Shown here: in pieces, positions 29,238-46,939 of the stretch | Layout: each line of letters opens with the position of its first letter | Position numbering within the stretch: the stretch's first letter is position 1 | From: Lachnospiraceae bacterium | GTDB taxonomy: Bacteria > Bacillota > Clostridia > Lachnospirales > Lachnospiraceae | Assembly: GCA_017460885.1 (NCBI GenBank) | Contig: JAFUAB010000050.1 | Location: forward strand, 40,095 to 104,094 | Reading direction: 5' to 3' | DNA: 64,000 nt | Program-made: the position numbers and the translations under genes | The notes under the pieces: model-generated | The model's input: the letters and a program-made list of their open reading frames with translations, nothing else | The model's database searches: none | What the model was told of the DNA's origin: nothing

Positions 29238-30377
29238 ATGAACGCTGAAATCAGTAAAAAACGCAGGATACTCTTTCATATCAACTGTCTCGAACATGGA
29301 GGAGCGGAGCGTGTTGTATCCAATCTTGCCAATAAGTTTGCAAAAGAAGGATATGATGTTACCGTCGCGGTTGAATGGATCGGCAAGAATGAATATGAAC
29401 TGGATCCGCGTATCGATCATGTGATGATCGGTATATCGGATTCCGAAAAATCCAAAGGGCGTATTTCTCAATATCTGCTCAGAATAAAGCACCTTAAACA
29501 TTGTATAAAAAAAGCGGAACCCGACATTGTGATCGCATTTGCGCATCTGGCAATCTATCGTGCTCTGATGGCAACGATAGGAACGAAGGTGCCTGTGCTG
29601 ATTTCGATCAGAACCAATCCGATAGGACATTATGATGGCCGTATGGATAAGCTTATGATCCCAATCCTGTTTCCGCGTGCTGCCGGCTGCGTATTTCAGA
29701 CGACCGGACAAAAGGATTTTTTTAAGCCTTATCTGCAGGATAATTCCAGGATCATATTAAACCCGCTTAGTGAAAAATATATTGGAGCAGAAGCCCCATC
29801 AGTTCGCCGTAAGTGCGTCGTTCAATCCGGGCGAATAGTTGATTTTAAGTATCAGCCTATGCTTGTGGACGCTTTTATGGATGTACACGATAAGCATCCG
29901 GACTGGTCGCTGGAGATATATGGTGGTGATTCCGGAGATGGTACGTGGGAAATACTGGAAGAAAAGATTCAAAAATATAACGCCGGTGATTACATCAGAC
30001 TGATGGGAGATTCCGATTCCCTCGAAAGAGATCTGAACGACGCAGGTCTGTATGCTTTTTCCTCCGAATGGGAAGGCCTGCCGAATGCGCTTCTTGAAGC
30101 GATGGCGCTTGGTTTGCCGGTTGTATCCACGGATTGCCCTTGCGGAGGACCGGCAACCCTTATCACTGATGAAGTAAATGGTCTGTTGGTGCCTGTAAAG
30201 GATAAGGATGCTTTGGCAGCAGGCATGTTAAGGCTGATCGAAGATGGCGAATTGGCTGATAAGCTGGGAGACAATGCCCGAAAGATAGTTGAGAGAGCAC
30301 ATCCGGACGTTGTTTACAGACAATGGGCCGAATACATAGAAGAAATAATAGGGAATCATTCTTCTAAAACGAAATAA
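29238..30377 (+). CDS. GT4 family glycosyltransferase (GalNAc/PglH-like type)
   Basis: 379 aa. ILFHINCLEHGGAERVVSNL is the N-terminal motif common in PglA/PglH/PglJ-like and TuaC-like enzymes; SGRIVDFKYQPMLVDAF, EIYGGDSGDG and SSEWEGLPNALLEAMALGLPVV complete the GT4 site. GAGGAG is present upstream but 14 bases from ATG 29238, longer than usual. The 3' end overlaps the 3' end of the minus-strand SGNH gene by 22 bases. Likely adds a hexosamine to the lipid-linked unit; specificity is inferred only from similarity of the N terminus. Confidence 0.86.
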   Translation: MNAEISKKRRILFHINCLEHGGAERVVSNLANKFAKEGYDVTVAVEWIGKNEYELDPRIDHVMIGISDSEKSKGRISQYLLRIKHLKHCIKKAEPDIVIAFAHLAIYRALMATIGTKVPVLISIRTNPIGHYDGRMDKLMIPILFPRAAGCVFQTTGQKDFFKPYLQDNSRIILNPLSEKYIGAEAPSVRRKCVVQSGRIVDFKYQPMLVDAFMDVHDKHPDWSLEIYGGDSGDGTWEILEEKIQKYNAGDYIRLMGDSDSLERDLNDAGLYAFSSEWEGLPNALLEAMALGLPVVSTDCPCGGPATLITDEVNGLLVPVKDKDALAAGMLRLIEDGELADKLGDNARKIVERAHPDVVYRQWAEYIEEIIGNHSSKTK

Positions 30378-31474
30378 TCCTTTTCCTCTATACGGCGGTC
30401 TATTGTGATCAGAGCTTCTTCATATTCTTTTTGCCATTCGGTATATGCATTCTCCCATGATGCATCTTTGACCGGATCGGTCCGGTGATCAGGCAGATCA
30501 TAGTGCGCTTTCAGATAGTTCCCAAGAAAAACAGTACATTTCTCGGCTCCCGCCGCATTGGTGTGTATGCCATAATCACTGAAATCTCTGGCAAAATCGA
30601 TTCCGATCTCGTCGTAGTATCGGTTCATATCAAGCCATGTGTATCCGCGTGATTCCACAGTCTCCTTTATATGAGTAAACTTTCCGGCGTCTTCGGCTGG
30701 CATATTGTACGGAGCAAGATAAAACAGGGCATCGGTATCCAATGAATCCATTTGATCAAGAAGATCGTTTAACGCGGATTCCTGGTAGGGATCGAGTGTT
30801 GCGGGAGACGCATTATCCCATTCCTCCGGTGTTTCTATCGGACCGACCTTATCGGTGATCTTGTAACCTTTACAGGGATCGGGGCTGGTATAAGTAAGGC
30901 TCATAAACTGACTTTTGTTGATCAGACTGATCCAGTTGGAGTGGTATTTAAATATATCAAAATAATAGGTATAGCGTTTGCGGTCGTCGCTGTTTACATT
31001 CGGATGCACCAAACAGTTTATCGCGCTGATACGGTTGAAGGAGTATTTCATATTGTCTGTTACCTCGCGGGTATATCCCATATTGATGGTCAGACTGTCT
31101 TCGGCGCCGGTGTACATGCGCATTTCGAACATATAAAGCTTTGGAGACTGAGTTTTTTCAGCTTCCCTTACAAGAAATCTTCCTGCTGCCGGCCGCTGTA
31201 CATTGCTGGCAAGAGGATAGGACCTGATCCCATATTCCCCATATAACTGAGGCATCACACAACTGGAGTAGGTAGGACTTGATCCGATCATAACTACATC
31301 GAGACTGTTTTTCGGCTCTGCGTAAAAACCCATAAAACGGGTCTTGGTATCTCCTGCCGGTCTGATCATATATGTAAGAGCTGTCAGTACTATCACAAAG
31401 ATCAGGACAAAGATGATCGGTCCCATAGGCTTACTGAATATAATATGCTTTTTAATGACTGTGTTTTCACTCAT
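30356..31474 (-). CDS. SGNH/DltD-like membrane-anchored acyltransferase partner
   Basis: 372 aa. One N-terminal transmembrane segment (about 18-37), then an outer domain with SGNH hydrolase features: VVMIGSSPTYSS (block I, Ser), and DYGIHTNAAGAEK near the C terminus with the Asp-x2-His-type dyad. Such proteins (DltD, AlgX/AlgJ, PatB) work with an MBOAT protein to move acyl groups to a polymer outside the membrane. It lies three bases after the MBOAT gene on the same strand, with AGGGA nine bases before ATG 31474. The acyl group could be acetyl or, given the nearby FkbH/ACP pair, a glyceryl-type acyl; that link is inference. Confidence 0.78.
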   Translation of the reverse strand: MSENTVIKKHIIFSKPMGPIIFVLIFVIVLTALTYMIRPAGDTKTRFMGFYAEPKNSLDVVMIGSSPTYSSCVMPQLYGEYGIRSYPLASNVQRPAAGRFLVREAEKTQSPKLYMFEMRMYTGAEDSLTINMGYTREVTDNMKYSFNRISAINCLVHPNVNSDDRKRYTYYFDIFKYHSNWISLINKSQFMSLTYTSPDPCKGYKITDKVGPIETPEEWDNASPATLDPYQESALNDLLDQMDSLDTDALFYLAPYNMPAEDAGKFTHIKETVESRGYTWLDMNRYYDEIGIDFARDFSDYGIHTNAAGAEKCTVFLGNYLKAHYDLPDHRTDPVKDASWENAYTEWQKEYEEALITIDRRIEEKDYFVLEE

Positions 31475-31477
31475 CTG

Positions 31478-33007
31478 TCAGAATCCCTGGTATATAAATT
31501 CCGCTGAACTGTATTCCGGACCATATTGTGCGGTAAGTATAACGAAGAAAAGGAACAGCATCCATATTGTGTATCGGACCGGAATAGTGTGCCGCGCTAT
31601 CCTGTCGCGCATATCGGTTTTGGTAAGTATGCTTATCAGACTGACAACAAGCATAAGTATTATTGAAAATATAAGTATTCCCAATTCCACATAATTCCAG
31701 CCTATAATGGTTACGTCGGAAAATGCACGTATGCCCCGTTCGGACAGGCCTTTCATAAGAGTGCCTGCCAGATAGGGGATGATGGATTCGGAGCCATTAA
31801 CAGATTTCCTGAACATACGTAATGCGTCGGTTACAGAGGCTGAGCGAAAGAATGCATTTCCGATGTTGACCAGAAGAAATGTACGGATGATCCGGATGAA
31901 TTGCAAGGTTTTGCAGTCGGAGTTGATGTTCAGTCGCTGCCAAAGCTTTGAAAAAGGAGATTTCAGGCTTTCCTCCATAACAATAAAGAACCAGTGAAGC
32001 AGCCCCGAGCCTAATACGAATGTCATTTTCCCGCCATGCCATAACCCAACCAAAAGCCAGAGTATAAACATGGCTATAAACGTGGATATCTGTTTGCCTG
32101 CGCGTTTTCCGAGCTTACTTTTGAGCTTTGTCTGCATAGAGGTGTAGGCTTTTGTTCTGAGGATCGGATAAAAAACATATTCCCTGAACCATAATCCCAG
32201 CGTTATATGCCATCTCCTCCAGTATTCGGATATTGTAGGAGCCAGAAACGGGGCGTTGAAGTTTTCAGGCAGAAAGATTCCCAAAGCTTGTGACATGCCG
32301 AGAACTATATCCATTAAACCTGAAAAGTCGGAATATAACTGGATGGTAAATAAGAGGATAGCAATAAAGACATTAAACCCGCCAAAAGTGTTGGGATCAG
32401 AAAACATAACAGACACAATGACTCCGAGCCGTTCGGATATTACCAGTTTCTTAAAAAACCCCCACAGCATACGCTGCAGACCGTAAATAACCCGCTTCGG
32501 ATCAAATGCGTGCTTAGCAAAAAAACTTTCGGAAATTTCTCTGTACTGCATTATCGGACCGGATACGAGAGCCGGAAAATACATACCGAAAGCGAGAAGC
32601 TTTAACGGATTCTTTTGGAGCTTTGATATCCCGTTATATACATCAACCATATATCCGATCAGAGTAAAGGTGTAATAAGAGAGTCCCAAAGGGATCAGTA
32701 ATTCGGATATATTTATAAAACGGAGATACTTAAGTATGATCAAAACCGAAAGGAGCAGTATTATTCCTATAACAAGGACTGCTTTTCGCCTTGAAACCTT
32801 TTCGGTAGCTGTTATGAGACGTGTACAGATATATACGACTGTAATACTGAGCAAAGGATATATTATAAGCACAGGATTACCGCTCAGCAGATAATATATT
32901 ATATTACTTACGAAAATTATGCCCCACTGGTATTTGCCGGGGACAGTATAGTAAACGACCAATATGACCGCAAAAGCGCATAGAAAATAAAAATCCGTGA
33001 AATTCAT
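31478..33007 (-). CDS. MBOAT family O-acyltransferase (AlgI/DltB-like)
   Basis: 509 aa, 10-12 hydrophobic segments. The MBOAT core is plain: FTIQLYSDFSGLMDIVLGMS, then APTISEYWRRWHITLGLWFR and the catalytic His in LLVGLWHGGKMTFVL. It moves an activated acyl group across the membrane to the partner protein that follows it (30356-31474). The N terminus has FSNIIYYLLSG and GLSYYTF, as in AlgI. No ribosome site precedes ATG 33007; a TATAAT lies nine bases upstream on the minus strand, so the mRNA may be leaderless. Confidence 0.9.
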   Translation of the reverse strand: MNFTDFYFLCAFAVILVVYYTVPGKYQWGIIFVSNIIYYLLSGNPVLIIYPLLSITVVYICTRLITATEKVSRRKAVLVIGIILLLSVLIILKYLRFINISELLIPLGLSYYTFTLIGYMVDVYNGISKLQKNPLKLLAFGMYFPALVSGPIMQYREISESFFAKHAFDPKRVIYGLQRMLWGFFKKLVISERLGVIVSVMFSDPNTFGGFNVFIAILLFTIQLYSDFSGLMDIVLGMSQALGIFLPENFNAPFLAPTISEYWRRWHITLGLWFREYVFYPILRTKAYTSMQTKLKSKLGKRAGKQISTFIAMFILWLLVGLWHGGKMTFVLGSGLLHWFFIVMEESLKSPFSKLWQRLNINSDCKTLQFIRIIRTFLLVNIGNAFFRSASVTDALRMFRKSVNGSESIIPYLAGTLMKGLSERGIRAFSDVTIIGWNYVELGILIFSIILMLVVSLISILTKTDMRDRIARHTIPVRYTIWMLFLFFVILTAQYGPEYSSAEFIYQGF

Positions 33008-33016
33008 ATCTTTATT

Positions 33017-33022
33017 ATTATA
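33017..33022 (-). promoter_or_regulatory. -10 box of the MBOAT gene, near-leaderless
   Basis: TATAAT on the minus strand at 33022-33017, nine bases before ATG 33007. There is no Shine-Dalgarno sequence between them. No convincing -35 box is visible. Confidence 0.4.
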
Positions 33023-33104
33023 AATGAAAAAGGCAATGATTACTACATCGGACTTGAATTATCCCGATACAGTATTGCCGTGTAGGACTGTTATATGGAA
33101 AATA

Positions 33105-33189
33105 TGCTATACTAAAAAAAGACTGATTAAGTCAGTGTTTCTCTTTCTCTACGGAAAGACTGATTAAAACAGCCTTTCGGTAGCAGTCT
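33105..33189 (+). promoter_or_regulatory. Extended -10 promoter and structured leader of the Wzy-like gene
   Basis: TGC-TATACT (hexamer 33108-33113) is an extended -10. Downstream, AAAGACTGATTAA occurs twice (33118-33130 and 33155-33167). The first copy folds as ACTGA/TCAGT (33122-33136) and is followed by a pyrimidine-rich run; the second AGACTG (33157-33162) pairs with CAGTCT (33184-33189). The first copy could pair with the same distal CAGTCT, so the two folds exclude each other, as in an attenuator. This is read by eye, without energy calculation. The rest of 33008-33207 is AT-rich without other signals. Confidence 0.35.
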
Positions 33190-33207
33190 CCGGCGGGATG
33201 TGTCACG

Positions 33208-34875
33208 TTGACGCGCTTGCAAAAAACTGGAGTGATCGGACGGACAGTAGTGTTTAGATTAAATAAAGAACAAAGAACCGCATATTGTGAAGTAATATAT
33301 CTGGTGTATTTTGCTGTCATGATCAGTGCGCGGGCATTGGGAATGTATGAGGGTACGACTGTTTATACGGCTGTACTTTTGATTGCGATCTTTCTGTTCG
33401 GATGCAAGATCCTTATGACAGATCATACCATGGCCGAATATGTCGTGATAGGTGCATTGATGGGCATATCGGGAGTTGTTTATCTTCATACCGGGGAGAA
33501 GGGGCTTATTGTATGTTTTATGACAGTCCTGGGGATGAAATATGTCAATCATTATAAGGTTATCAGGATCGGAACCGTCTGTGCGGCAGTATGCATCATA
33601 TTCAGGATCATTACGGGAGTGTTCGGTATCCTTCCCGAGAAATATTACCCACAGGTTCGTGATGGAGTCGGATTGATGTTCAGACACAGCCTGGGATACG
33701 CTCATCCTAATACTCTGCATATGAACGTGCTTATGCTGAGCATGCTTATCATATATCTGCTGACTTCATGGCTGAAGTATGGCGATCCGGCTATGAATGC
33801 ACGTGACAGACTTCTGACGTTGCTGTCTGTTTCTGTCATTGTAATGGGTTTCAATTATTATGTGTTTATGTATTCCGGAAGCAGGACCGGCCTGCTTGCA
33901 TCTGCAGCTTTCCTGATCGTTAATCTCTGGTTTTTCCTGAGGCCGGAGCCGGGACTGCCTGAGAAGCTTGTCTGCTATGCTGCGTATCCGACAGTCTGTT
34001 TTATTGCGATCGTATTGCCGTTTATCCTGCCCGATTCCGTATTTGATAAGATAGACCGCACGATATTTACTACAAGATTCAGTATTGCCAGATATTATAT
34101 GAGTAATAACAGTATTTCCGTATGGGGGATCAGACTTAATAATCCCTTGCCGGAGTACAGGACATACGGGCTTGATATGTCACATATGTATCTTTTCCTC
34201 CAACTCGGACTGGTGGCATTTGCGACAGTCAGTATTATGACTATGGTCTTCGTATATCGCGCATTATCCAAAAAGATGATGTGTGAGATGGCTGTTTTGC
34301 TGGGAACACTTTTTGCCGGAATATGGGAACCGTTCCTGTATAATCTCGGCTTCAAAAATATAACATATGTATTTATGGGTGCTTTGCTTTACGAGATCAC
34401 ATCACGGCAGGAATATGTAATAAAATGGAAAACAGATAACGGCGCAGTATCATTTAAGAGATCTATGGTGGAAATTCTTAATCCGCGGGCCTTGCTATGG
34501 CTTATGGCGATATCTGTGATGACCGGCACAGCTGTTTCTGCTGTCTGGATCGCGGCTACTCCGCCCCCGACAGCTTTATACGGTAATCTTTCACAGGATG
34601 AGAGCGGACAGGGATTTGGCATGGAGGAACTGTATCTGACTGCTGAAGATATAAGACAGCTTAAGGATCAGGGTGATATGATCATCGGCTATAATGACAG
34701 CAGAACACCCATGTACCGATATGATTCGGGAATAGCCGAGATGGAATATCGCAAGAAAGCTTTGAGTGTTGGCGTATGGACGGGAACCATGACCGCGATC
34801 GTAATGGGAGTCTTTATATATCCGAGGATCAGGAAGAAATATAAAACAAATGCGGGATCGGATAAGAAGAGGTAA
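33208..34875 (+). CDS. Wzy-like O-antigen/exopolysaccharide polymerase
   Basis: 555 aa, about 12 hydrophobic segments with a long outer loop holding RHSLGYAHPNTLHMNVLML and, after it, YVFMYSGSRTGLLASAAFL: the H-P-N and GSRTG motifs are typical of polymerases and ligases of the Wzy/WaaL type. The C-terminal about 110 residues, beyond a final helix, are an extra outer domain plus one more helix. It probably joins the repeat units flipped by the Wzx protein at 4767. The start codon is not ATG: TTG 33208 or GTG 33250 are candidates, because the first Met lies within the first helix. Confidence 0.75.
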   Translation: MTRLQKTGVIGRTVVFRLNKEQRTAYCEVIYLVYFAVMISARALGMYEGTTVYTAVLLIAIFLFGCKILMTDHTMAEYVVIGALMGISGVVYLHTGEKGLIVCFMTVLGMKYVNHYKVIRIGTVCAAVCIIFRIITGVFGILPEKYYPQVRDGVGLMFRHSLGYAHPNTLHMNVLMLSMLIIYLLTSWLKYGDPAMNARDRLLTLLSVSVIVMGFNYYVFMYSGSRTGLLASAAFLIVNLWFFLRPEPGLPEKLVCYAAYPTVCFIAIVLPFILPDSVFDKIDRTIFTTRFSIARYYMSNNSISVWGIRLNNPLPEYRTYGLDMSHMYLFLQLGLVAFATVSIMTMVFVYRALSKKMMCEMAVLLGTLFAGIWEPFLYNLGFKNITYVFMGALLYEITSRQEYVIKWKTDNGAVSFKRSMVEILNPRALLWLMAISVMTGTAVSAVWIAATPPPTALYGNLSQDESGQGFGMEELYLTAEDIRQLKDQGDMIIGYNDSRTPMYRYDSGIAEMEYRKKALSVGVWTGTMTAIVMGVFIYPRIRKKYKTNAGSDKKR

Positions 34876-34877
34876 AT

Positions 34878-35279
34878 ATGATTTCAACATTAAAAATCCA
34901 CCATATCGGATATCTTGTTAAGAAAATAGAAAAAGCTCAAAGTCAGTTCCTGACGCTGGGCTATCAGGTCGTAAGCAAAATCTGCCGTGATGAATATCGT
35001 AAGGTAGATATTCTGTTTATGGAAAAGGACGGTTACAGGATCGAACTGGTCAGTCCGTATTCGGAGGATTCCGTTGTTTACGGGCTTATGAGCAGATATA
35101 AAAACAGTCCGTATCATATATGCTATGAAACGGACGATTTGGAAACCACTGCGGCCGAACTGTGCAGCGATGGCTTTACAGCGATAGACGAAGCAACACC
35201 GGCTCCGGCGATAAAGGGCCGCAGAGTACAGTTTCTGATGGGTCGTTATTCGGGAATGATCGAGTTATTGGAGAATTAA
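34878..35279 (+). CDS. VOC (glyoxalase) superfamily protein, methylmalonyl-CoA epimerase-like
   Basis: 133 aa, the usual size of a one-chain VOC protein with two beta-alpha-beta-beta-beta repeats. KIHHIGYLVKKIEKAQ supplies the first metal His, YRIELVSPY the Glu, SPYHICYETDD the second His, and GMIELLEN the last Glu: the H-E-H-E set of methylmalonyl-CoA epimerase and glyoxalase I. Its end overlaps the end of the minus-strand ACP gene by 15 bases. Next to FkbH and ACP it could epimerise or remodel an acyl thioester; that is inferred from position only. Confidence 0.8.
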   Translation: MISTLKIHHIGYLVKKIEKAQSQFLTLGYQVVSKICRDEYRKVDILFMEKDGYRIELVSPYSEDSVVYGLMSRYKNSPYHICYETDDLETTAAELCSDGFTAIDEATPAPAIKGRRVQFLMGRYSGMIELLEN

Positions 35280-35510
35280 TTCTTCTATGATATTCACCAT
35301 CTCACCGACATTCTTCATGGTCACGATCTGTCCCATATTGAATTTGATGCCAAACTGCTGTTCAACGGCAGCGATCAGATTGATATGCTCCAGAGAATCC
35401 CAGTCTTCGATATCATCCGATGTGGTCTCGTCATTAACGGTAATGGATTCGTCATCGAATACATCCCTGAATACCTCGTTCAAGTCGGCGTAAATCTCTT
35501 CTCTTGTCAT
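35265..35510 (-). CDS. Acyl carrier protein
   Basis: 81 aa. DWDSLEHINLI has the Ser (S39) that receives the 4'-phosphopantetheine arm; the rest is the acidic four-helix pattern of ACPs. The sequence is not that of a fatty-acid ACP (no GADSLD), but of the stand-alone ACPs that pair with FkbH proteins. A strong ribosome site GAGAGGAG lies six bases before ATG 35510. It follows the fkbH-like gene by 22 bases on the same strand, so it is expected to be its carrier. A PPTase must act from elsewhere. Confidence 0.92.
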   Translation of the reverse strand: MTREEIYADLNEVFRDVFDDESITVNDETTSDDIEDWDSLEHINLIAAVEQQFGIKFNMGQIVTMKNVGEMVNIIEELILQ

Positions 35511-35532
35511 TGATAGCTCCTCTCGTTAACGT

Positions 35533-37371
35533 TCAATTATCTTTCGGCGATGCCGTATTTTGTACTTTTATCACGGTATTGCGGCGTTCCCGGGGCTTAG
35601 ATATGTCCAGCTCCCATATTGTGGATCCTTCGGGGATGTCATTACGCTCCGGCGGCCATTCGGTGCAGCCGTCAAGCAGCGCAAACCCCATTGTCTTATA
35701 GAATTCCCTTACCATACCGTTCTTGGCGGTGGGATAGTAGTAACCCCTGATCCGGTTTAGGCCTGCATCGGCAGCTTTCTCTATTATAGCATCAAGCATG
35801 GCAAATTCCGTATCACGTTTCAGAACCCTGCAGCTCATAAGCCATAAATCCATATGCAGTATGCCCTGATCCGTATCCTTGCGTCCGATCAGCAGCGAGA
35901 CGATACCGTTGTCGCCGAATCTGTCTGAAAGCTGCCCGTACAAAGTGATATATTCATCGGATTCGGAGAATCTTTTGACATCGGATTCGCTGCATCTGAG
36001 AGTCGTCAGGTTAAACTGGTTGGACTTGCCCGTCAGCTGTGAAATACGTCCGAAATACATCGGATCAAAAGGTGCGATCACGGCACTCATGTCCAGACTG
36101 AGCAGGTATTCATGATAATCAGCATAAGCATTTTGCGCGTGTGCGCGTTCGGCATTTGCCTTATACATGGAATTGCGTTTGCGGTCATCCTCGGACAGTC
36201 CGATCACCTCAAAATACCCGTTTTTATCCAGGTTTCGGATGTATTCTTCGGGTTTACCGATATCCGGAACCGCCGCTCCGGGTATCCGGTCTGCGACTAT
36301 CATACGCTCAGCGGGATTGTCATCCACAAATACGAATGAATCGGGCGTGATATTGATAGATGCGGCTATGTCGGTCAGATTCCTGTCCTTGGGATCCCAG
36401 TTGGCCCTGATCTCGATGAAGTCATCGGGACGAAGTACTCCCGAGGGATGATTCAGACCTGCGATGGCGTTTTCCTCTTCATTCTTGGAGTCGACGTTCA
36501 GAAGAACCCCGATATCCTTATGCTTCCTGAGGTATTCCTGAAATTCCGTATAGGTTTCGGCAATGGCCGTTTCCTGACCGATCTCAAGTCCTTCGGGACC
36601 GTCGTCACCGACTATACCGCCCCACAGGGTATTATCCAGATCCAGGGCAAATGCCTTTTTATTATATCCCCATATGGCCTTGCAGATATGCGAAAGACTG
36701 AATGCGAATCCGGGGATCGCCTGCATGGAGCACATGTACTTGTACATATTCCAAAAAGCCGGATCTGTCCATTTATCCAGGCCGTATGAAGCGGAGAGAT
36801 AGTTGATATCATGGATATAGAAGCTGCGATGTCCTGCTGCATAACCGGCAAATCTCTCATTGAGTCTGTTGACAAACCGGACCGTGCCGGATGCATCTAC
36901 TGCCTCGTAGTTGCCCATAACACGGTAATAGGGATATTCAAAGTTATTCTGAATGATCGGACACCTGTATTTATCGGCCAGATGCTCCCACATGGATACG
37001 AAGCGGTCAAATTCGGCATTAAGTAATGCATCCGTCTGTTCGCCCGACATGCCCGGCGAAGGAAGATTTAGGATGTTGCGGTATCCGGTGTGTATATAAA
37101 TCAGCTCCGGAGCAAACGATACCAGCTCCTCGGGATCGAACATGGCATCCTGATAGTATTGGGCATATTCGGATTCGTAAAAAGACGGCTTTATTCCGTA
37201 GTTTAAGAGGAAAAGCTCGAGGATCCGAAGATAATCGTGGGTTGTTGATCCGCCCAGTACGGCTATACGTCGATCCGCCCTTTGGGTAGTGTCGGAAAGA
37301 AGTTCGCGTCGTATTGATTTGGATTTTTTAAGTATATAATCCCCGTCAAAGGGGTACTCCAGAATATTCAT
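35533..37371 (-). CDS. FkbH-like protein (HAD-IIIC phosphatase domain plus GNAT domain)
   Basis: 612 aa in three parts: an SGNH-like N-terminal region (AVLGGSTTHD, 37-46), a HAD-IIIC domain with KAFALDLDNTLWGG (nucleophile D244, D246) and VFVDDNPAERM, and a GNAT-like C-terminal domain (about 450-600). Characterised FkbH enzymes take 1,3-bisphosphoglycerate, remove phosphate and load D-glyceryl onto an ACP (tetronate and methoxymalonyl pathways). The start MNILEYPFDGDYILKKSKSI is family-typical, yet no ribosome site precedes ATG 37371. A TTGCTA-18-TAAAAT promoter ends six bases upstream, so the message is probably leaderless. The expected partner is the ACP just downstream. Confidence 0.9.
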   Translation of the reverse strand: MNILEYPFDGDYILKKSKSIRRELLSDTTQRADRRIAVLGGSTTHDYLRILELFLLNYGIKPSFYESEYAQYYQDAMFDPEELVSFAPELIYIHTGYRNILNLPSPGMSGEQTDALLNAEFDRFVSMWEHLADKYRCPIIQNNFEYPYYRVMGNYEAVDASGTVRFVNRLNERFAGYAAGHRSFYIHDINYLSASYGLDKWTDPAFWNMYKYMCSMQAIPGFAFSLSHICKAIWGYNKKAFALDLDNTLWGGIVGDDGPEGLEIGQETAIAETYTEFQEYLRKHKDIGVLLNVDSKNEEENAIAGLNHPSGVLRPDDFIEIRANWDPKDRNLTDIAASINITPDSFVFVDDNPAERMIVADRIPGAAVPDIGKPEEYIRNLDKNGYFEVIGLSEDDRKRNSMYKANAERAHAQNAYADYHEYLLSLDMSAVIAPFDPMYFGRISQLTGKSNQFNLTTLRCSESDVKRFSESDEYITLYGQLSDRFGDNGIVSLLIGRKDTDQGILHMDLWLMSCRVLKRDTEFAMLDAIIEKAADAGLNRIRGYYYPTAKNGMVREFYKTMGFALLDGCTEWPPERNDIPEGSTIWELDISKPRERRNTVIKVQNTASPKDN

Positions 37372-37407: not shown

Positions 37408-37441
37408 ATGGTTGAAAAAAGCGAAACAGAGCGGAAAGATT

Positions 37442-38206
37442 ATGTTTTCTTACGACGATTACAGAGAGATCATCAAAATCATACGGGAGAGCGGACGCGG
37501 GATGAAATATCCCGAGGCGTTAAATGCGGATTCCTTTGTCATTATGAGACATGACGTGGAATACAGTGTTGAAAGGGCCTATGAGCTTTCCAATGTTGAA
37601 TCCGATCTGGGTTTTGCCAGCACATGGTTTTTCCAGATCACCAACAACACCTATAATCCGTTTTCACGCAGATCTGTCGGAATGATCGGACGGATGCGCG
37701 ATGCCGGACATACGATCGGTCTGCATTATGCGCTTGACGGTGAAACGGATATGGAAAAGGTTCGTGAGCAGATACCGCGCCATATGCGTATAATGTCCGA
37801 GATGCTGGGATTTAAGGTCGATCAGTTCAGCATTCACCGGCCGCCGGTCGAGGCCCTCAGATGCAATTTCAAATATCCCGGACTTATCAATGCATATCAG
37901 GACGATTTTTTTACGTTCGCGGAGGAGATCACGGAGGGTACCGAGCTTAAGGTTAAATATATGTCGGATGCTAACCATATCTGGAGGTACGGTTATCCCG
38001 ACAGGGATAATATTCTGAATCACCGACGGGTTCAGATACTGACGCATCCTTTTGCCTGGTGCGCGGAGGGCTATGATAATCACGATAATTACAAAGCCCT
38101 GATACATGAGAAGTATATCGAAACGATTCATTCGATAGATGATGAGTGTAAGGATTTTAAGGAGTATCTTGACGGGTTTCTTGGGGCATCGATAAATCTG
38201 CGTTAG
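37442..38206 (+). CDS. Polysaccharide deacetylase-like (NodB-fold) protein
   Basis: 254 aa, cytoplasmic. FVIMRHDVEYSVERAYELSN has the His-Asp pair after a beta strand, then ASTWFFQITNNTYNPFS and GHTIGLHYAL; this RHDVD..A..LA..E...G..sT.FF pattern occurs in carbohydrate esterase 4-like proteins of surface-glycan loci. The C-terminal RVQILTHPFAW supplies the late His. ATG 37442 has GGAAAG just upstream; an in-frame TTG at 37412 would add ten residues. Substrate unknown: an N-acetyl or O-acyl sugar is plausible. Divergent from the FkbH operon. Confidence 0.75.
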   Translation: MFSYDDYREIIKIIRESGRGMKYPEALNADSFVIMRHDVEYSVERAYELSNVESDLGFASTWFFQITNNTYNPFSRRSVGMIGRMRDAGHTIGLHYALDGETDMEKVREQIPRHMRIMSEMLGFKVDQFSIHRPPVEALRCNFKYPGLINAYQDDFFTFAEEITEGTELKVKYMSDANHIWRYGYPDRDNILNHRRVQILTHPFAWCAEGYDNHDNYKALIHEKYIETIHSIDDECKDFKEYLDGFLGASINLR

Positions 38207-39794: not shown

Positions 39795-40883
39795 ATGAAA
39801 AAGAAGATCGTTTCTGTAATCATAGCCGCCGCATCGATCGTCATGCTGGCAGGCTGCAGCCTGGATGGCGTAAATATCGAGGACGAGGTAACGGAGGCCA
39901 TTTTGTCCGAACAGGAGCCTGTATCCGAAACCGAACCCGAAACCGAAGAGAAACCGGACGAACAAAAACAGGAAGCGGACAAGACCGGGCCTGATACAGC
40001 GACGGAGATGGATCAGCCGGAGGATCTGGCACCGGATCCGACCGTGATGACCGAAGAAGCATTGGATGCAGACGTGGTTGAGATGCTTGCTTCGGAGGCA
40101 GACGGCGAAGGCAATATCGAACCGGTTGCGGAGAAGCCTGCACCGGATCCCTTTCAGATAGTTTTTATAGGAGATTCCATCTTTGATTCGGTCAGAGATG
40201 AGACCGGTATAGCGCATCTCGTGGGTGATGCGCTGGATGCCGATATCTATAATCTCTCGATCGGTGGCACGTCCGCAGCTATCCGCTGGGGGAAGCCGAC
40301 CGACAAAAAGACCTGGACCGAGCCCTCTCTGCTGGGTGTCATATATACCATGCAGGGAGTATTGGCCAATGATGTCATGGACGGATATAAGGCCGGAGAG
40401 GTGATAGAGACTCTTGACCCGTCCAAAACCGATTACTTTATCATAGAATACGGAACCAATGATTTTCTGAGTTATATCCCCATAGGATCCGAAAATATCA
40501 ACGGGCAGTATTTTTATTATTTTTCCACTACACTGACGATGGGTATTACCGAGCTCAAAAACAGCTATCCCAATGCCCGGATAATCCTTTGCACACCATA
40601 TTATGAGCAGTTCTGGTCGGCCGACAGGACAAGATTTATCGGAGATGTTCATACGGTGAACAACGGATTCGGAACACTTCTGGATTACGTTGGAGTAATA
40701 GAGAGTACGGCCTCAGATAATAATGTCAGCTGCCTTAATATGTATAATCTGATGGAGATAGATACATACAGCGTGGATAAGATGACGGTCGACGGGATCC
40801 ATCCCAACGAGGAGGCCAGACGTAAGTACGCCGGGCTTCTGATAGACAAGATCAATGAACTGGAGCAGGAAACGGATGAATGA
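39795..40883 (+). CDS. SGNH-hydrolase lipoprotein
   Basis: 362 aa. The signal peptide ends in the lipobox LAGC (Cys21), so it is a membrane-tethered lipoprotein. Residues 22-120 are a low-complexity Glu/Asp/Pro linker. The catalytic domain begins about 123: IVFIGDSIFDS (Ser128), LSIGG, EYGTND and VDGIHPNEEA (Asp333, His336), the four SGNH blocks all intact. It probably removes acyl groups from a surface glycan or peptidoglycan, or acts as an O-acetyltransferase. AAGGAG lies nine bases before ATG, and an 11-base direct repeat is further upstream. It overlaps the next gene by eight bases. Confidence 0.87.
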   Translation: MKKKIVSVIIAAASIVMLAGCSLDGVNIEDEVTEAILSEQEPVSETEPETEEKPDEQKQEADKTGPDTATEMDQPEDLAPDPTVMTEEALDADVVEMLASEADGEGNIEPVAEKPAPDPFQIVFIGDSIFDSVRDETGIAHLVGDALDADIYNLSIGGTSAAIRWGKPTDKKTWTEPSLLGVIYTMQGVLANDVMDGYKAGEVIETLDPSKTDYFIIEYGTNDFLSYIPIGSENINGQYFYYFSTTLTMGITELKNSYPNARIILCTPYYEQFWSADRTRFIGDVHTVNNGFGTLLDYVGVIESTASDNNVSCLNMYNLMEIDTYSVDKMTVDGIHPNEEARRKYAGLLIDKINELEQETDE

Positions 40884-41862
40884 AAAGCGTTTTAAGCTTA
40901 ATATTCATATTATTCTGATAATAGCCATAATAATTGTTTTGGGCATTGCAGCGTATGAACTGCTTTCGTGGAATCACGGAGAGCAGCTGGCTTTTGACCC
41001 TGATGAGGATACATCGGAATTCGATGTTGAGATCCTGGATGAGATAGTTCCCATGAATCCCGCGGAGTACGCCGGACATACCTTTGATGATGAAACCACT
41101 GTCCTTCTTTTGGGAAACGGTTCTCTCTCGTTTACCCGTGATGACAAGGACGGCCTGGGAGCGCTGATAGCGGATTATGCGGGAGTGAAGGTCTATAATG
41201 CGTCATTTCCGTATCCTACTCTGGCCACCAGAAACCTGGCCATGATAGAACAGAATTATCCAGATGATATTTATTCGCTGACTTATCTGACGGACGCCAT
41301 ATGCAGCGGAGATTTTTCGGAGATCGACCGTGTGACTTCCACATACCACGGAGACGGTAATTTCACGCAGGATTCGGCTAAGATACTGAAGCAGATCGAT
41401 TATGATAATCTGGATGTGATCGTTATCATGTATGATGCTTCCGATTATTTTGAAGGAAGAGCCATAGAGAATCCGAAGGATGATGAGGAGAGATGTACGA
41501 TAGTGGGGTCGCTGAATTATTCCATTCGCAGACTTCGTGAGACATACCCGTACATACGTATCATAGTTTCCAGCTTATACTATACCGAAGGCAGAAATTC
41601 CGACGGCTCGGTTTATGATCCTGATGTCGTGGATGCGGGTAACGGAACGATCTCCAATTATTTCTATAACGAACTCAATACCTGCGTGGATCTGTCGGTT
41701 TCATTTGTGGATAACTTCTACGGGACGATCAATCAGGATAACTATAGGGATTATATAGATACAGACACGGATGCGGATTATATCAGGCTGACGGATGCCG
41801 GCAGGGAAGTGCTGGCAAGACGTATAGCATATGCCATAAACAAATATCAGCATGACAAATAA
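40876..41862 (+). CDS. Membrane-anchored SGNH-like protein with degenerate active site
   Basis: 328 aa. One N-terminal transmembrane helix (about 8-29), acidic linker, then a fold parallel to the upstream lipoprotein: TVLLLGNGSLSFTRDD in the place of GDS, VIVIMYDASDYF in the place of GTND, and YIRLTDAGREVLARRIAYAI where the D-x2-H block should be. The catalytic Asp-His pair is not visible (IRL instead of IHL). It is likely a diverged paralogue, a binding partner rather than an enzyme, or an enzyme with changed chemistry. ATG 40876 has AGGA six bases upstream and overlaps the preceding gene; the two are co-translated. Confidence 0.72.
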   Translation: MNEKRFKLNIHIILIIAIIIVLGIAAYELLSWNHGEQLAFDPDEDTSEFDVEILDEIVPMNPAEYAGHTFDDETTVLLLGNGSLSFTRDDKDGLGALIADYAGVKVYNASFPYPTLATRNLAMIEQNYPDDIYSLTYLTDAICSGDFSEIDRVTSTYHGDGNFTQDSAKILKQIDYDNLDVIVIMYDASDYFEGRAIENPKDDEERCTIVGSLNYSIRRLRETYPYIRIIVSSLYYTEGRNSDGSVYDPDVVDAGNGTISNYFYNELNTCVDLSVSFVDNFYGTINQDNYRDYIDTDTDADYIRLTDAGREVLARRIAYAINKYQHDK

Positions 41863-41907: not shown

Positions 41908-44900
41908 ATGAAAAAGAAGAATAAGCTTACAGCGTTTGAAAAACGGGTAAGAGACCGGCATAAACGGCAGGAGAAGGAATTCGGACGTGACGAATTCCTT
42001 TTCGGCGTTGATGAGGAGGATGAAACCGTTGATATAGAGTATGGAGAGGATACTGATCCCGGGGTGGAACCGGCCGTCGGGGATGATCCGGATATGGAGG
42101 ATCGGACCGGGAATGAGCGGGATCTGACTCCGGACGATTCCGGAATAGGCAATACAACCGCGATCATTGCGGATGAGATAATCGCAGCCCAGTTGTCCGC
42201 ACTTGCGACAGAGATGTCCGGGGATGGTGTCGAAGAGAACGATGAGGATTCCGACTTCTATACGGATGAGATACCGGCGGCGGAAGATGAAGCGGCAGTG
42301 TCTGTGACAGGCGGAACGGAAACGGAAGAATCCGGGGACCTGCCGGAGGAAGAGGATGACGAGGATTCCGACTTCTATACGGATGAGATACCGGCGGCGG
42401 AAACTGAAGCGGCAGTGTCTGTGACAGTCGGAACGGAAACGGAAGAATCCGGGGACCTGCCGGAGGAAGAGGATGACGAGGATTCCGATTTCTATACGGA
42501 TGAGATTCCCGCGGCAGTCGCCGCTATGGCAGAGGCAGAAGAGGCGGCTGCGATAGCCGAGGCCGAAATGGCAACACGCAGAAAGTCGTCCGGGACCAAA
42601 TCAAGATTAAAATCGGTATCGGGATCCGGATCGAAGCGCGTAAACTCACGCAAGCGAAAAAAGCCTGCCAAAGAAGAGGAAGATACTCCTCTTGTCGGTG
42701 GGATCGCATCCTTCCTGACGGATATGTCTGTGACAGACAGACTTATAGTGGTAACGGGGATATGCGTCCTGATAGTGGCGATCATCAGCGGTTCTATATT
42801 TGTCAATGCCCGTACCATTCAGAAACAGGTGGCTGAATTCGGAACTATCGGCGGTCAGACAGCCGGTATTTACGTTGTGGGTGAGAGCGGATTGAACGCG
42901 GCGGTTTCGGCCAGAGCGGATTATTTAGCCGTCAGCGAGCTTGAACAGCTTCCCGAAGAGGAGCCGGAGATTGTTGAAGAGATAGTCATAGAGGATAAAG
43001 TCGTTCAGATAGTGATGAAAGTCGCTTCGGTTCAGTCTGACCTCAAGATCAAGTTCTCGAATAAGGATACGGGGAAGCTGATATCAGGTGTGGCATTTGC
43101 GGTTACCGTCACTTCCGATGCAGGTAAGGAGTATAAGTGGAGCGATGATAATAAGGACGGACTGATCTACCATACAGACGTTCCGAACGGGACATACAGC
43201 GTGGTGATGGAGGAACTTCCCGAAGAGGAAAAGGATAATTATCTGCTTCCGTCCAACGTATCCGGGGTCAAGGTAACCGACAAGATAGAGTATAAAAAGG
43301 TCGATGTGGCCGATGAGGTTAAATCCGAGGCTGAAGTAAACGTTGCGGCCGAGGATACCGCCGTCCAGGATACGGCAATAGAATCCCAGCTTGCAGATAC
43401 GGTGGAATGGGTGGAATCTACCAAGACCCTGATCAGTGGCTCGGATGATGGATATATGGAGATAGATAAAGGCAGTATAAGCCTGACTACTTCAAGGGTG
43501 ACAGTACAGGAAAGAGACCTGGTCGTGGAAACGGGAATCTGGCAGATGCCGGTTATGAGTGCCGAACCCGAAACTACCGTTGTCAAACTGATGGCGGAGG
43601 GAGAAGAAAGCGGAGAGACGATTAAACCCGGCGGTGATGACAGTACCTCCGAGAATACCGATCAGAATACAAACGAGGAGGATGAAAGCGGGGACAGCTC
43701 GAAAACCGAAGAAGAAAAAAAGGATGACGAGGAGTCGGGCGGTGACGCTGAGGTCGTGTCGGATGATAACCATATTTCATCGGTATCGATAAGCAGCAAC
43801 AGCATCAGTCTGAAGGTCGGTGATACATACGGCCTGAAGGCGAGCGCCAGGAGAGAAAACGGAGATGACGGGGGAACAGTTTCCTGGTGGTCGTCCGATG
43901 AGAGTATAGCTACCGTTTCGGACGGAACGGTAACTGCGGTAAGCAAGGGAACTGCGACCATTACTGCCATAAGTGATATGGACGGGAGCAAATCCGCAAG
44001 CTGTAAGGTTACGGTTTCGGATCCGGATGAAAAGACGGACAACGAAAATGTGAATATCGATTCCCCGAAACTGAAAGACAGCAGCGGAAACCAGGTTTAT
44101 ATAAAAAATTCCTCCGGTGAGTATGTACCTGCGACTCAGGCGGACTATGACAGCGCCGATAAGTTCTATATCAAAACCACCGGTGATAACGCCGTGTATA
44201 TGTACACCGGATGGCAGACCATTGACGGCAATACATACTTTTTTGATAAAAACGGAAATTACGTGACCGGGGAACAGATCATTCAGGGAGCGCGTTATAC
44301 GTTTAACTCCGATGGACATCTCTCAACCGGCAGTGGTACTATGGGTATAGATGTATCCAAGTGGAACGGATCCATAGACTGGAATGCGGTCAAAAATGCG
44401 GGTGTCTCGTATGTTATTATCCGTTGCGGATACAGGGGATCCAGTACCGGAGCTCTGATCGAGGATCCCAAATTCAGAGCCAATATATCCGGAGCAAAAG
44501 CAGCCGGACTTGCAGTCGGAGCGTATTTCTTTACTCAGGCCGTTAATGAGGTAGAGGCCGTGGAAGAGGCGTCCATGGCAGCGAGCCTTTGCGGAGGCTA
44601 CGGTCTTTCACTGCCGATCTTCCTGGATGTAGAAAGCTCCGGAGGCAGAGGAGATTCTATAGGGGCGGATATGAGGACGGCAGTGGTCAAGGCCTTTTGC
44701 CAGACCGTCAGGAACTCCGGCTATGCGGCAGGCGTTTATGCCAATAAGACCTGGTTTACCGAAAAGATGCATATTTCACAGCTTACGTCATATAAGATAT
44801 GGCTTGCCCAGTATGCGGCTTCGCCAACTTATACCGCTTCCCGGTACGACTACTGGCAGTACTCGTCCAAGGGCAAGATCTCGGGTATCAGCGGAAATGT

Positions 44901-44943: not shown

Positions 44944-45879
44944 TTGGACAAAATAGCGGTACTTATACCATGCTATAATGAAGAAAAAACAATAACCAAG
45001 GTTGTGACAGACGCCAGAAGGATCCTTCCGGAGGCGACAGTATATGTATATGACAATAATTCGTCGGATGCCTCGGTCAGGCTGGCACAGGAGGCCGGCG
45101 CTATAGTCAGGCACGAGTATGTGCAGGGTAAGGGCGCAGTTATCCGGCGGATGTTCAGAGAGATCGAAGCCGAATGCTATATAATGGTTGACGCGGATGA
45201 TACCTACCCGATGGAAAATGCCCCCGAAATGGTCAGGCTGGTGGAAGAGCATAATTCAGATATGGTGGTGGGAGACAGGCTTTCATCCACGTATTTTACG
45301 GAAAACAAGAGGCCGTTTCATAATTTTGGCAACTCAATAGTACGCGGCACCATCAACCGTCTGTTTGACTGTGACGTAAAGGATATCATGACCGGATTCA
45401 GGGCATTCAGCTATAATTTTGTCAAGACGTTTCCTGTGTTATCGCGGGGCTTTGAGATTGAGACCGAGATGACGATCCACGCGGTTTACAATCATATGCA
45501 GATCGACAATGTTATCGTAGATTATCGTGACCGTCCCGAGGGGTCGGAATCCAAGCTGAATACGTATTCCGACGGGATCAGGGTTCTGTTTACGATACTC
45601 AAGCTGTACAAGGATTATAAGCCCATGTCTTTTTTCAGCCTGCAGGCTTTGGTGCTTACGCTTATTTCTACGGCGTTTCTGATACCGGTATTGGTTGAAT
45701 ATGTGCAAACGGGGCAGGTTGCCAGATTTCCTACTCTGATAGTGTGCTGCTTCGTATATATGGCCGCCATACAGTCTGTTTTTTCGGGCATGATCCTGTC
45801 TAATCTGGCATTGGCAAACAGGCGGGAATTTGAATTTAATCTGACCACACTCAAGGCAAGAGAATCCCGAAGTGAGTAG
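44944..45879 (+). CDS. DPM-like GT2 glycosyltransferase with two C-terminal helices
   Basis: 311 aa. IAVLIPCYNEEKTI, YDNNSSDAS, GKGAVIRRMF and the DxD-type MVDADDTYP mark a GT-A enzyme of the dolichol/polyprenyl-phosphate type; IMTGFRAFSYNF and RPEGSESKLNTY are also typical. Two hydrophobic segments near the C terminus (about 228-250 and 262-285) hold it at the membrane. It should make a polyprenyl-phosphate sugar used by a GT-C partner; the GT-C like gene at 46936 is the nearest candidate. It starts at TTG 44944, supported by GAGAGG nine bases upstream. It overlaps the next frame at GTG 45872. Confidence 0.86.
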   Translation: MDKIAVLIPCYNEEKTITKVVTDARRILPEATVYVYDNNSSDASVRLAQEAGAIVRHEYVQGKGAVIRRMFREIEAECYIMVDADDTYPMENAPEMVRLVEEHNSDMVVGDRLSSTYFTENKRPFHNFGNSIVRGTINRLFDCDVKDIMTGFRAFSYNFVKTFPVLSRGFEIETEMTIHAVYNHMQIDNVIVDYRDRPEGSESKLNTYSDGIRVLFTILKLYKDYKPMSFFSLQALVLTLISTAFLIPVLVEYVQTGQVARFPTLIVCCFVYMAAIQSVFSGMILSNLALANRREFEFNLTTLKARESRSE

Positions 45880-45883
45880 TGCT

Positions 45884-46939
45884 ATGGACAAAAGCAGGAA
45901 CAGAGGTCTTGATATATGCAGGATCATAGCCTGCGCCCTGGTCATTATCAACCACAATAATTCTAAGGTCATGCTGCAGGTGATCCCCGGATCGATGGCC
46001 TGGTATGTGACAGTGGCCGTTGTATATCTGACCAAGATAGCGGTTCCTGTCTTTTTTATGATCACGGGATATAATCTTCTGCACCGCATCGATGACCGAA
46101 GGGCATATTTTGCGAGAATAGTCAGGATGTCGGTGATTCTTGCCGTATTTACTCTGGCTTACTTCGTGTGGAAATGTCTGATAGGGGTATATGATCCCGG
46201 CGAAAGCGGAAATCCGGTTGCCGGCTTTGCTCTTGGCTATATAAGGGTGCTGTTCAGGGATACCGTTACCGACTCATATTGGTATATGTATACTTATCTC
46301 GGCATTCTTATCGTACTTCCCGTATTACAGCATATAGCAGCTGCGGCAGAGGGCAGGACCATCTTTACCGTAATGATGATCATGAGCGTACCCCTTTCTC
46401 TGATCCCCACAGCCGGATTGTTTGTCCGGGGATTTAATCTGTCTGAATATTTTGTGCTTCCCGGAGTTACAACAGCAGTTTTTTATCTGTTTGCGGGACA
46501 CCTAATGTATCTGTACAGGGACGTAAAAGGTGCCGGAGTATGGCTTCAATGCCTCATATTTGCGGCCGGATTTGCATTAAACATGTGCTTTATGCATATG
46601 GAGTATAATATGTCTGACGGATCGGCCTTTTTGTCACAGTCCGAGATCCACAGTCCCGGTATAATTGCCTGCAGCGTATCATTCGCTATGGTAATGTTCC
46701 GATGCGGATCGCTGTACCCTGTTATCGAAAAGACAGTCGGAGTACTGGCTCCGCTTACATTCGGCGTATATCTGATCGGCGATTTTATGTGCTCGACGAC
46801 ACATATGGTATATTACAGTCTGTGTGCGCACATGAACAGGCTTGCTGCCGTAGCGATACAGGATGTCGCAGCTCTTGCGGCTGCCTTTGTTATCGTGTAT
46901 CTGGTCAGATTGATACCGACGGTGAAAGGGTGGATATGA
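45884..46939 (+). CDS. Acyltransferase family 3 membrane protein
   Basis: 351 aa, about ten hydrophobic segments. RNRGLDICRIIACALVIINH has the R and H of TM1 in acyltransferase 3, and VPVFFMITGYNLL matches TM2. It probably acetylates (or otherwise acylates) a glycan outside or at the membrane. ATG 45884 is used; GTG 45872, in frame four codons earlier and overlapping the GT2 gene, is an equal candidate because neither has a clear ribosome site. It is the second such protein in the window (first at 1722). It overlaps the following gene by four bases. Confidence 0.8.
   Translation: MDKSRNRGLDICRIIACALVIINHNNSKVMLQVIPGSMAWYVTVAVVYLTKIAVPVFFMITGYNLLHRIDDRRAYFARIVRMSVILAVFTLAYFVWKCLIGVYDPGESGNPVAGFALGYIRVLFRDTVTDSYWYMYTYLGILIVLPVLQHIAAAAEGRTIFTVMMIMSVPLSLIPTAGLFVRGFNLSEYFVLPGVTTAVFYLFAGHLMYLYRDVKGAGVWLQCLIFAAGFALNMCFMHMEYNMSDGSAFLSQSEIHSPGIIACSVSFAMVMFRCGSLYPVIEKTVGVLAPLTFGVYLIGDFMCSTTHMVYYSLCAHMNRLAAVAIQDVAALAAAFVIVYLVRLIPTVKGWI

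Follow-up and report, generated by a model that had tools for sequence, protein, structure and literature searches.

The 64,000-nucleotide stretch of a Lachnospiraceae bacterium genome analyzed here (assembly GCA_017460885.1, contig JAFUAB010000050.1; hereafter, the window) carries an FkbH-type loader and its acyl carrier protein (ACP) close to an MBOAT acyltransferase and an SGNH protein, a set of parts reminiscent of the Dlt system for D-alanylation of teichoic acids. On the minus strand lie the genes for the loader (612 aa; 35533..37371), the adjoining ACP (81 aa; 35265..35510), the DltB-like MBOAT acyltransferase (509 aa; 31478..33007), and the SGNH/DltD-like acyltransferase (372 aa; 30356..31474). 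A plus-strand pair is located between the ACP and MBOAT genes: a VOC-fold, methylmalonyl-CoA-epimerase-like protein (133 aa; 34878..35279), a candidate tailoring enzyme (epimerase) whose gene overlaps the end of the ACP gene by its last 15 bases, and, upstream on the same strand, a Wzy/O-antigen-ligase-like polytopic membrane protein (555 aa; 33208..34875), named by eye from its sequence only and giving no Pfam match. An earlier note on this DNA had reported the five open reading frames (ORFs) for FkbH, ACP, VOC, MBOAT, and SGNH, and all coordinates and strands were confirmed; its placement of the VOC gene between the others on the opposite strand also held, but the Wzy-like gene, which it did not mention, lies there too.

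The loader exceeded the cut-offs of both TIGR01686 (276.4 bits; cut-off 146.65) and PF21211 (FkbH_N; 39.4 bits; cut-off 27), and comprises an FkbH_N domain, a HAD-IIIC domain (nucleophile D244, with D246, S295, and D350/D351), and a C-terminal domain with C514 in an SCRV motif. Residue counts, for which 169 of 181 FkbH rows were used, found D244, D246, D350, and D351 each in all 169, and C514, which we take to be the glyceryl-accepting cysteine, in 168, the remaining row having a gap; the same cysteine is present in all 36 and all 8 rows of two further alignments, some of whose rows are shared. The ACP matched PP-binding (PF00550; 26.4 bits, cut-off 20.8), and its phosphopantetheine site, S39 (WDSLEH), is conserved in 150 of 150 ACPs of FkbH loci, with loader and ACP fused into one ORF in L048. 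The nearest named relative of the window FkbH belongs to an uncultured Lachnospiraceae metagenome-assembled genome (MAG; L158). A dead or altered loader was suspected from D294, since many FkbH proteins have a cysteine before SKN, and this was rejected because site 294 is variable family-wide (among the 169: C 48, N 46, D 35, A 19, V 8, I 7, S 6); two Streptomyces FkbH proteins encoded beside KASIII and ACP have serine there. In published accounts, FkbH domains load and dephosphorylate D-1,3-bisphosphoglycerate, leaving glyceryl on the carrier (PMC8949500, PMC7489565), and, judging from family membership and intact catalytic residues, the window enzyme would most likely use the same substrate.

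This gene grouping recurs across many genomes. TIGR01686 scored above its cut-off in 82 of 397 genomes of the family and PF03062 was present in 369, so most MBOATs occur without FkbH. We fetched 100 family FkbH places with up to 10 kb per side and searched their ORFs with hidden Markov models (HMMs) grown from the window proteins; the neighborhood scan covered eight families, a scope that a recurring cytoplasmic acyltransferase outside them could escape. The linkage test used 77 of these 100 loci (free-standing, full-length FkbH with at least 3 kb of flank) and 56 of 80 genome_contigs loci, the latter chosen as the best 80 of 570 relatives that an alignment headed by the window protein retrieved. 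Among the 77 family loci, an ACP was found within 300 bp of FkbH in 64, and 39 have an MBOAT no more than 1.5 kb from the FkbH/ACP span (37 on the same strand); with the MBOAT placed at random within its own locus, 500 trials averaged 10.2 and never exceeded 20. The genome_contigs loci gave 33 of 56, against a random average of 12.1 (highest value 20). Chance is an unlikely explanation of a linkage observed directly in this way.

In a tree of 169 FkbH rows, the window protein fell into a clade of 127 (support 100). Counting the 134 of 169 loci with at least 3 kb of flank, the window included, loci of this clade have an ACP in 90 of 95, an MBOAT within 8 kb in 77, and a VOC gene within 3 kb in 26, versus 36, 13, and 10, respectively, of the 39 loci outside it; ACP thus accompanies FkbH in 126 of 134. 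When gene order was counted over 181 loci (order among scanned families at any distance, two FkbH pairs >95% identical being kept), FkbH-ACP-MBOAT occurred in 46 and MBOAT-FkbH-ACP in 34. The window's own order, FkbH-ACP-VOC(reversed)-MBOAT, is shared by L061, L115, L142, and L146, and the near relatives L113 and L158 have FkbH-ACP-SDR-MBOAT-SGNH; a sugar epimerase is also kept beside the module in these two relatives.

A search for the same neighborhood elsewhere, as the earlier note had proposed, found FkbH, ACP, and MBOAT genes side by side in Clostridia, a Treponema MAG, an alphaproteobacterial MAG, and named alphaproteobacterial plasmids. Eight plasmid regions around FkbH were examined, and those with an MBOAT near FkbH by HMM numbered four, comprising Rhodobacteraceae SC52 (ACP-FkbH-MBOAT-hypothetical-VOC; MBOAT tail FIYFNF), two Sinorhizobium meliloti records (MBOAT-ORF-ACP-FkbH; FLYQGF), and Tistrella, where an MBOAT on the opposite strand (FIYAGF) and an ACP lie near FkbH. 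In S. meliloti 1021 pSymB (L225), FkbH reads in two pieces, and in strain RCAM1750 (L224) it is one annotated ORF. L197 is a MAG titled Alphaproteobacteria; of 240 genomes from its class, 22 have FkbH above cut-off, and nine of the 23 loci fetched from that class (L229, L230, L232, L234, L236, L238, L241, L245, L248) have an MBOAT within ~2.1 kb of FkbH.

The window MBOAT (catalytic H324) exceeded the cut-off of PF03062 (45.6 bits; cut-off 27) and scored below that of the DltB model (157 bits; cut-off 375). It has the DltB fold with two extra C-terminal helices (439-462, 475-492) and ends in the tail FIYQGF, of which Y506 is the tyrosine; a relaxed form of the tail motif was present in 85 of 99 MBOATs and Y506 in 97. 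When 162 MBOATs were placed in a tree (FkbH loci, 122; background, 40), the window protein fell into a 73-row clade (support 99) consisting of 62 FkbH-linked rows, the window included, and 11 others from the same loci, with none of the 40 background proteins. Residues also separate the clade from background: W317 (73/73 vs 1/40), G271 (73/73 vs 4/40), R375 (71/73 vs 0/40), Y280 (66/73 vs 0/40), and position 333, which is Gly in 57 of 73 and Trp in all 40. None of the background MBOATs has this type of ACP or FkbH in its 6-10 kb stretch, as judged with an ACP model grown from ACPs beside FkbH that other ACP types could escape, and three of the 40 have an SGNH match. These 40 were hand-picked among the best-scoring places listed, and the picks did not include the listed MBOAT places near FkbH (one within 10 kb by eye, G318:C1); 0/40 therefore describes ordinary MBOATs and is no rate. 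As 62 of the 96 MBOATs labelled FkbH-linked belong to the 73-row clade, the MBOATs of FkbH loci appear, on this tree, to form a largely dedicated clade.

The SGNH protein gave no Pfam or NCBIfam match at E 0.01. Its structural model (pLDDT 90) adopts an SGNH fold, and the top Foldseek match in the PDB was DltD (6pfx; E 6.5e-4), with other SGNH folds scoring like DltD by VIA-align. An N-terminal helix spans residues 17-37, and of the candidate catalytic motifs, G64-S65-S66 and H304, both S66 and H304 are invariant in the 21 rows of one alignment. The closest likeness to a Dlt operon was observed in four other genomes. All four loci with a DltB-type MBOAT of ~400 aa are complete SGNH-FkbH-ACP-MBOAT operons, and a DltX-like microprotein of 41-45 aa directly follows the MBOAT in each (L036:7819-7956, L042:7634-7762, L048:7735-7872, L080:12046-12171), its end, ILYQGF or VLYQSF, being near to but not exactly FXYXXF. 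A scan of 300 loci, with 40,338 small ORFs, gave no further clear match. Such proteins are small enough for annotation to miss.

Taken together, we consider it likely that these genes form a Dlt-like transmembrane acylation module in which FkbH stands in place of DltA, the AMP-forming ligase. FkbH would take a glycolytic acyl phosphate, most likely D-1,3-bisphosphoglycerate, strip its phosphate, and load the glyceryl group on the ACP phosphopantetheine, after which the VOC protein (in the window and some loci) or a FabG-like SDR (in other loci) would alter the ACP-bound group, the VOC protein perhaps inverting C2. By analogy with DltB/DltX and PatA, the MBOAT would then collect the group on the cytoplasmic side from the ACP and place it on Tyr506 of its FIYQGF tail outside, and the SGNH protein, like DltD and PatB, would pass the group on to an exported glycan at one of its hydroxyls. 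A glyceryl group and a glycan acceptor are both plausible. The module shares with the Dlt system a carrier protein, a DltB-fold MBOAT, an SGNH protein whose best Foldseek match is DltD, and an FXYXXF-type tyrosine shuttle, as well as, in the four relatives, the DltX-like microprotein. Unlike the Dlt system, it contains FkbH instead of a DltA ORF (the best DltA match in the whole genome was 231.6 bits, below the cut-off of 559.85), and the window MBOAT carries the shuttle motif itself. With DltA absent and the DltB cut-off unreached, this is not a Dlt system by the tests made, though it is proposed to work like one.

Several observations weigh against this reading. Site 294, next to the HAD motif, varies in the loader (Cys in 48 of 169), though C514 is invariant. 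The plus-strand pair splits FkbH-ACP from MBOAT-SGNH, so the four window genes are not one operon; promoter and terminator scans found sites no more numerous than in shuffles. Independent occurrence, which the earlier note had set against the module, was seen in part of the loci: 90 of 134 FkbH loci have an MBOAT within 8 kb and 44 do not, which indicates that FkbH-ACP serves other acceptors too. Likewise, no MBOAT was found by HMM near the plasmid FkbH of Subdoligranulum, a clostridial species, Niveispirillum, Maritalea, or Paroceanicella. On the Niveispirillum plasmid (L222), FkbH-ACP precedes genes for a putative acetyltransferase of the WcbI family and for an SDR, with no MBOAT, and the WcbI-type protein is a possible further outlet for ACP-bound glyceryl. 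The tail motif is present in 39 of 40 background MBOATs, and is therefore no marker of ACP use. A number of linked MBOATs group with ordinary ones in the tree, which has 10 changes between linked and background, so that recruitment of MBOATs to FkbH/ACP loci appears to have happened on several occasions. Lastly, the window SGNH protein has a displaced triad Asp (D-x-x-x-H), and SGNH proteins are recognized patchily in relatives by HMM within 4 kb (27 of 77 and 17 of 56 loci); a motif test found SGNH beside 22 of 91 MBOATs, with the same motifs in 197 of 1601 control ORFs, and lends weak support only, being too strict because the window's own subgroup has D-x-x-x-H.

Among the alternatives, the one that survives best accepts a Dlt-like module but holds that the transferred group is a derivative made on the ACP (L-glyceryl, O-methyl-glyceryl, a lactyl-type group, or an oxidized C3 acid), set by whichever VOC, SDR, or methyltransferase is present; we regard it as a real possibility, somewhat short of even chances. 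Near FkbH/ACP in the 134 loci, VOC genes occur in 36 and FabG-like SDR genes in 23 (L113 and L158 included), and never both. The hypergeometric probability of this exclusion was 3e-4, uncorrected for relatedness and including two weak SDR matches (L036, L095), and 3e-3 when these two matches were left out and only the 90 MBOAT loci were counted. VOC residues H9, E56, H80, E129, and D38 are each invariant in 39 of 39, the first four presumably being metal ligands in an H/E/H/E pattern. With an MBOAT present, VOC genes accompany 25 of 77 loci of the window's FkbH clade and none of 13 others, and in Paroceanicella a methyltransferase and a VOC gene are found beside ACP-FkbH. These patterns suggest that VOC and SDR may be alternative enzymes for one step, altering the ACP-bound group before transfer, with the VOC protein perhaps epimerizing C2. 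Furthermore, gellan carries L-glycerate rather than D-glycerate (PMC9104527), and inversion would be needed if the source were D-1,3-bisphosphoglycerate. However, 47 of the 90 MBOAT loci have neither gene within 3 kb, so VOC/SDR tailoring is not obligatory, and the window VOC protein, although above the cut-off of Glyoxalase_4 (63.8 bits; cut-off 27), reached 57.8 bits against its best NCBIfam match, methylmalonyl-CoA epimerase TIGR03081, below the cut-off of 114.95.

Ordinary O-acetylation is a less probable account, and in our judgment an improbable one. Here, MBOAT and SGNH would use acetyl-CoA as PatA/PatB do, FkbH/ACP glyceryl would serve a separate cytoplasmic step, and the two pairs would be neighbors only through a common polysaccharide. 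The window MBOAT's own FXYXXF tail fits this account, such tails being paired with acyl-CoA donors in the characterized systems (PMC12148441), as do the near-universal tail of background MBOATs, the many family genomes with MBOATs and without FkbH, the FkbH loci without MBOAT, and the plus-strand pair dividing the two gene pairs. It does not readily explain why MBOATs lie beside FkbH/ACP far more often than under random placement, why nearly two-thirds of FkbH-linked MBOATs share one background-free clade with residues rare in the 40 background proteins (W317, R375, Y280), or why four genomes have compact operons of SGNH, FkbH, ACP, and MBOAT with a DltX-like protein. On this recurrent linkage, the MBOAT clade, and the four genomes with a complete Dlt layout and FkbH in DltA's place, the Dlt-like module that the earlier note had put forward is favored over its alternative of plain acetylation beside an unrelated FkbH/ACP pair. 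That FkbH/ACP, the Wzy-like protein, and glycosyltransferases act together inside the cell to glycerylate a sugar nucleotide or a lipid-linked unit, with MBOAT-SGNH unrelated, is very improbable: the VOC/Wzy-like pair does neighbor the ACP in the window and FkbH-ACP loci without MBOAT exist, but the Wzy-like family has HMM matches in very few relatives' loci, being part of the polysaccharide locus and outside the conserved module, whereas MBOATs, in the same scan of eight families, occur in most loci of the window's FkbH clade.

The Dlt-like module with an FkbH loader can also be set against other known systems. PatA/PatB-type MBOAT-SGNH acetyltransferases likewise pair an SGNH protein with an MBOAT having two additional C-terminal helices that end in FXYXXF, but lack a carrier protein because acyl-CoA is used (PMC12148441); here, the MBOAT comes with an ACP and a loader for it, the putative donor side. 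That paper describes MBOAT-SGNH systems as using D-alanyl-DltC or acyl-CoA and non-Dlt pathways as having no carrier protein, a statement from which this module departs. FkbH/ACP pairs of polyketide and nonribosomal peptide synthesis (methoxymalonyl, tetronate) are similar in their intact HAD residues, SCRV cysteine, and free-standing adjoining ACP, but in the window no polyketide synthase or KASIII lies beside them and, within a surface-polysaccharide locus, they are partnered by a membrane acyltransferase. Gellan gum of Sphingomonas is a known bacterial polysaccharide with a glycerate ester, in the L form (PMC9104527), and is alike with respect to the proposed product. No description of glycerate ester biosynthesis, including a gene cluster for the gellan glyceryl acyltransferase, was found in Creative Commons-licensed PubMed Central papers, which does not establish absence from print, and no paper in that literature was found to treat HAD-IIIC and MBOAT together; those found there to mention both FkbH and MBOAT concern natural products.

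If the proposed module is correct, the charging of an ACP by FkbH from an acyl phosphate would be a third supply route for MBOAT-SGNH systems, widening the range of bacterial surface acyl groups, tying surface decoration to glycolysis, and providing a genetic handle on glycerate esters. More tentatively, and with rather less than even confidence, we suggest a widespread, hitherto undescribed class of envelope acylation that taps 1,3-bisphosphoglycerate directly, without an ATP-using ligase or acyl-CoA and glycerylates surface glycans, in which decoration would track glycolytic flux and interchangeable VOC and SDR enzymes would set stereochemistry or oxidation state; with such enzymes acting at the ACP, the occurrence of L-glycerate on polymers like gellan would be accounted for. 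In many gut bacteria, a polymer of sugars at the cell surface appears to be modified with a small acid, probably glycerate, by machinery resembling that for teichoic acid alanylation but with a loader best known from antibiotic pathways. The presence of the module in Alphaproteobacteria makes it testable in cultured species such as S. meliloti.

The window surroundings constitute a large surface-polysaccharide locus with a flippase, many glycosyltransferases (one of WecG/TagA type), nucleotide-sugar epimerases, a Wzt-type ABC transporter, and GH25 proteins. Two AT3-type acyltransferases (Acyl_transf_3; 1653-2840 and 45872-46939) are encoded in the same locus, so that separate enzymes may be in place for ordinary acetylation. 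A polysaccharide-deacetylase-like protein (37412..38206, plus strand), named by eye and without a Pfam match at E 0.01, is encoded divergently from a start 40 bp from that of FkbH, and homologues were found by HMM near some related modules (L103, L115, L158, L160, L161, L181). Further along, an adjacent plus-strand pair (39795-41862) encodes a GDSL-type protein whose start resembles that of a lipoprotein (39795-40883), followed by a 335-aa protein with no Pfam match (40855-41862). The entire window (1-64000) recurs, reversed, on contig C38 of the same assembly (~97000-161200) at 99.98-99.99% identity, as two pieces overlapping at window positions 42349-42398 inside a GH25 gene; given a genome contamination value of 6.64, this second copy probably reflects assembly redundancy or a mixture of strains and not a genuine duplication.

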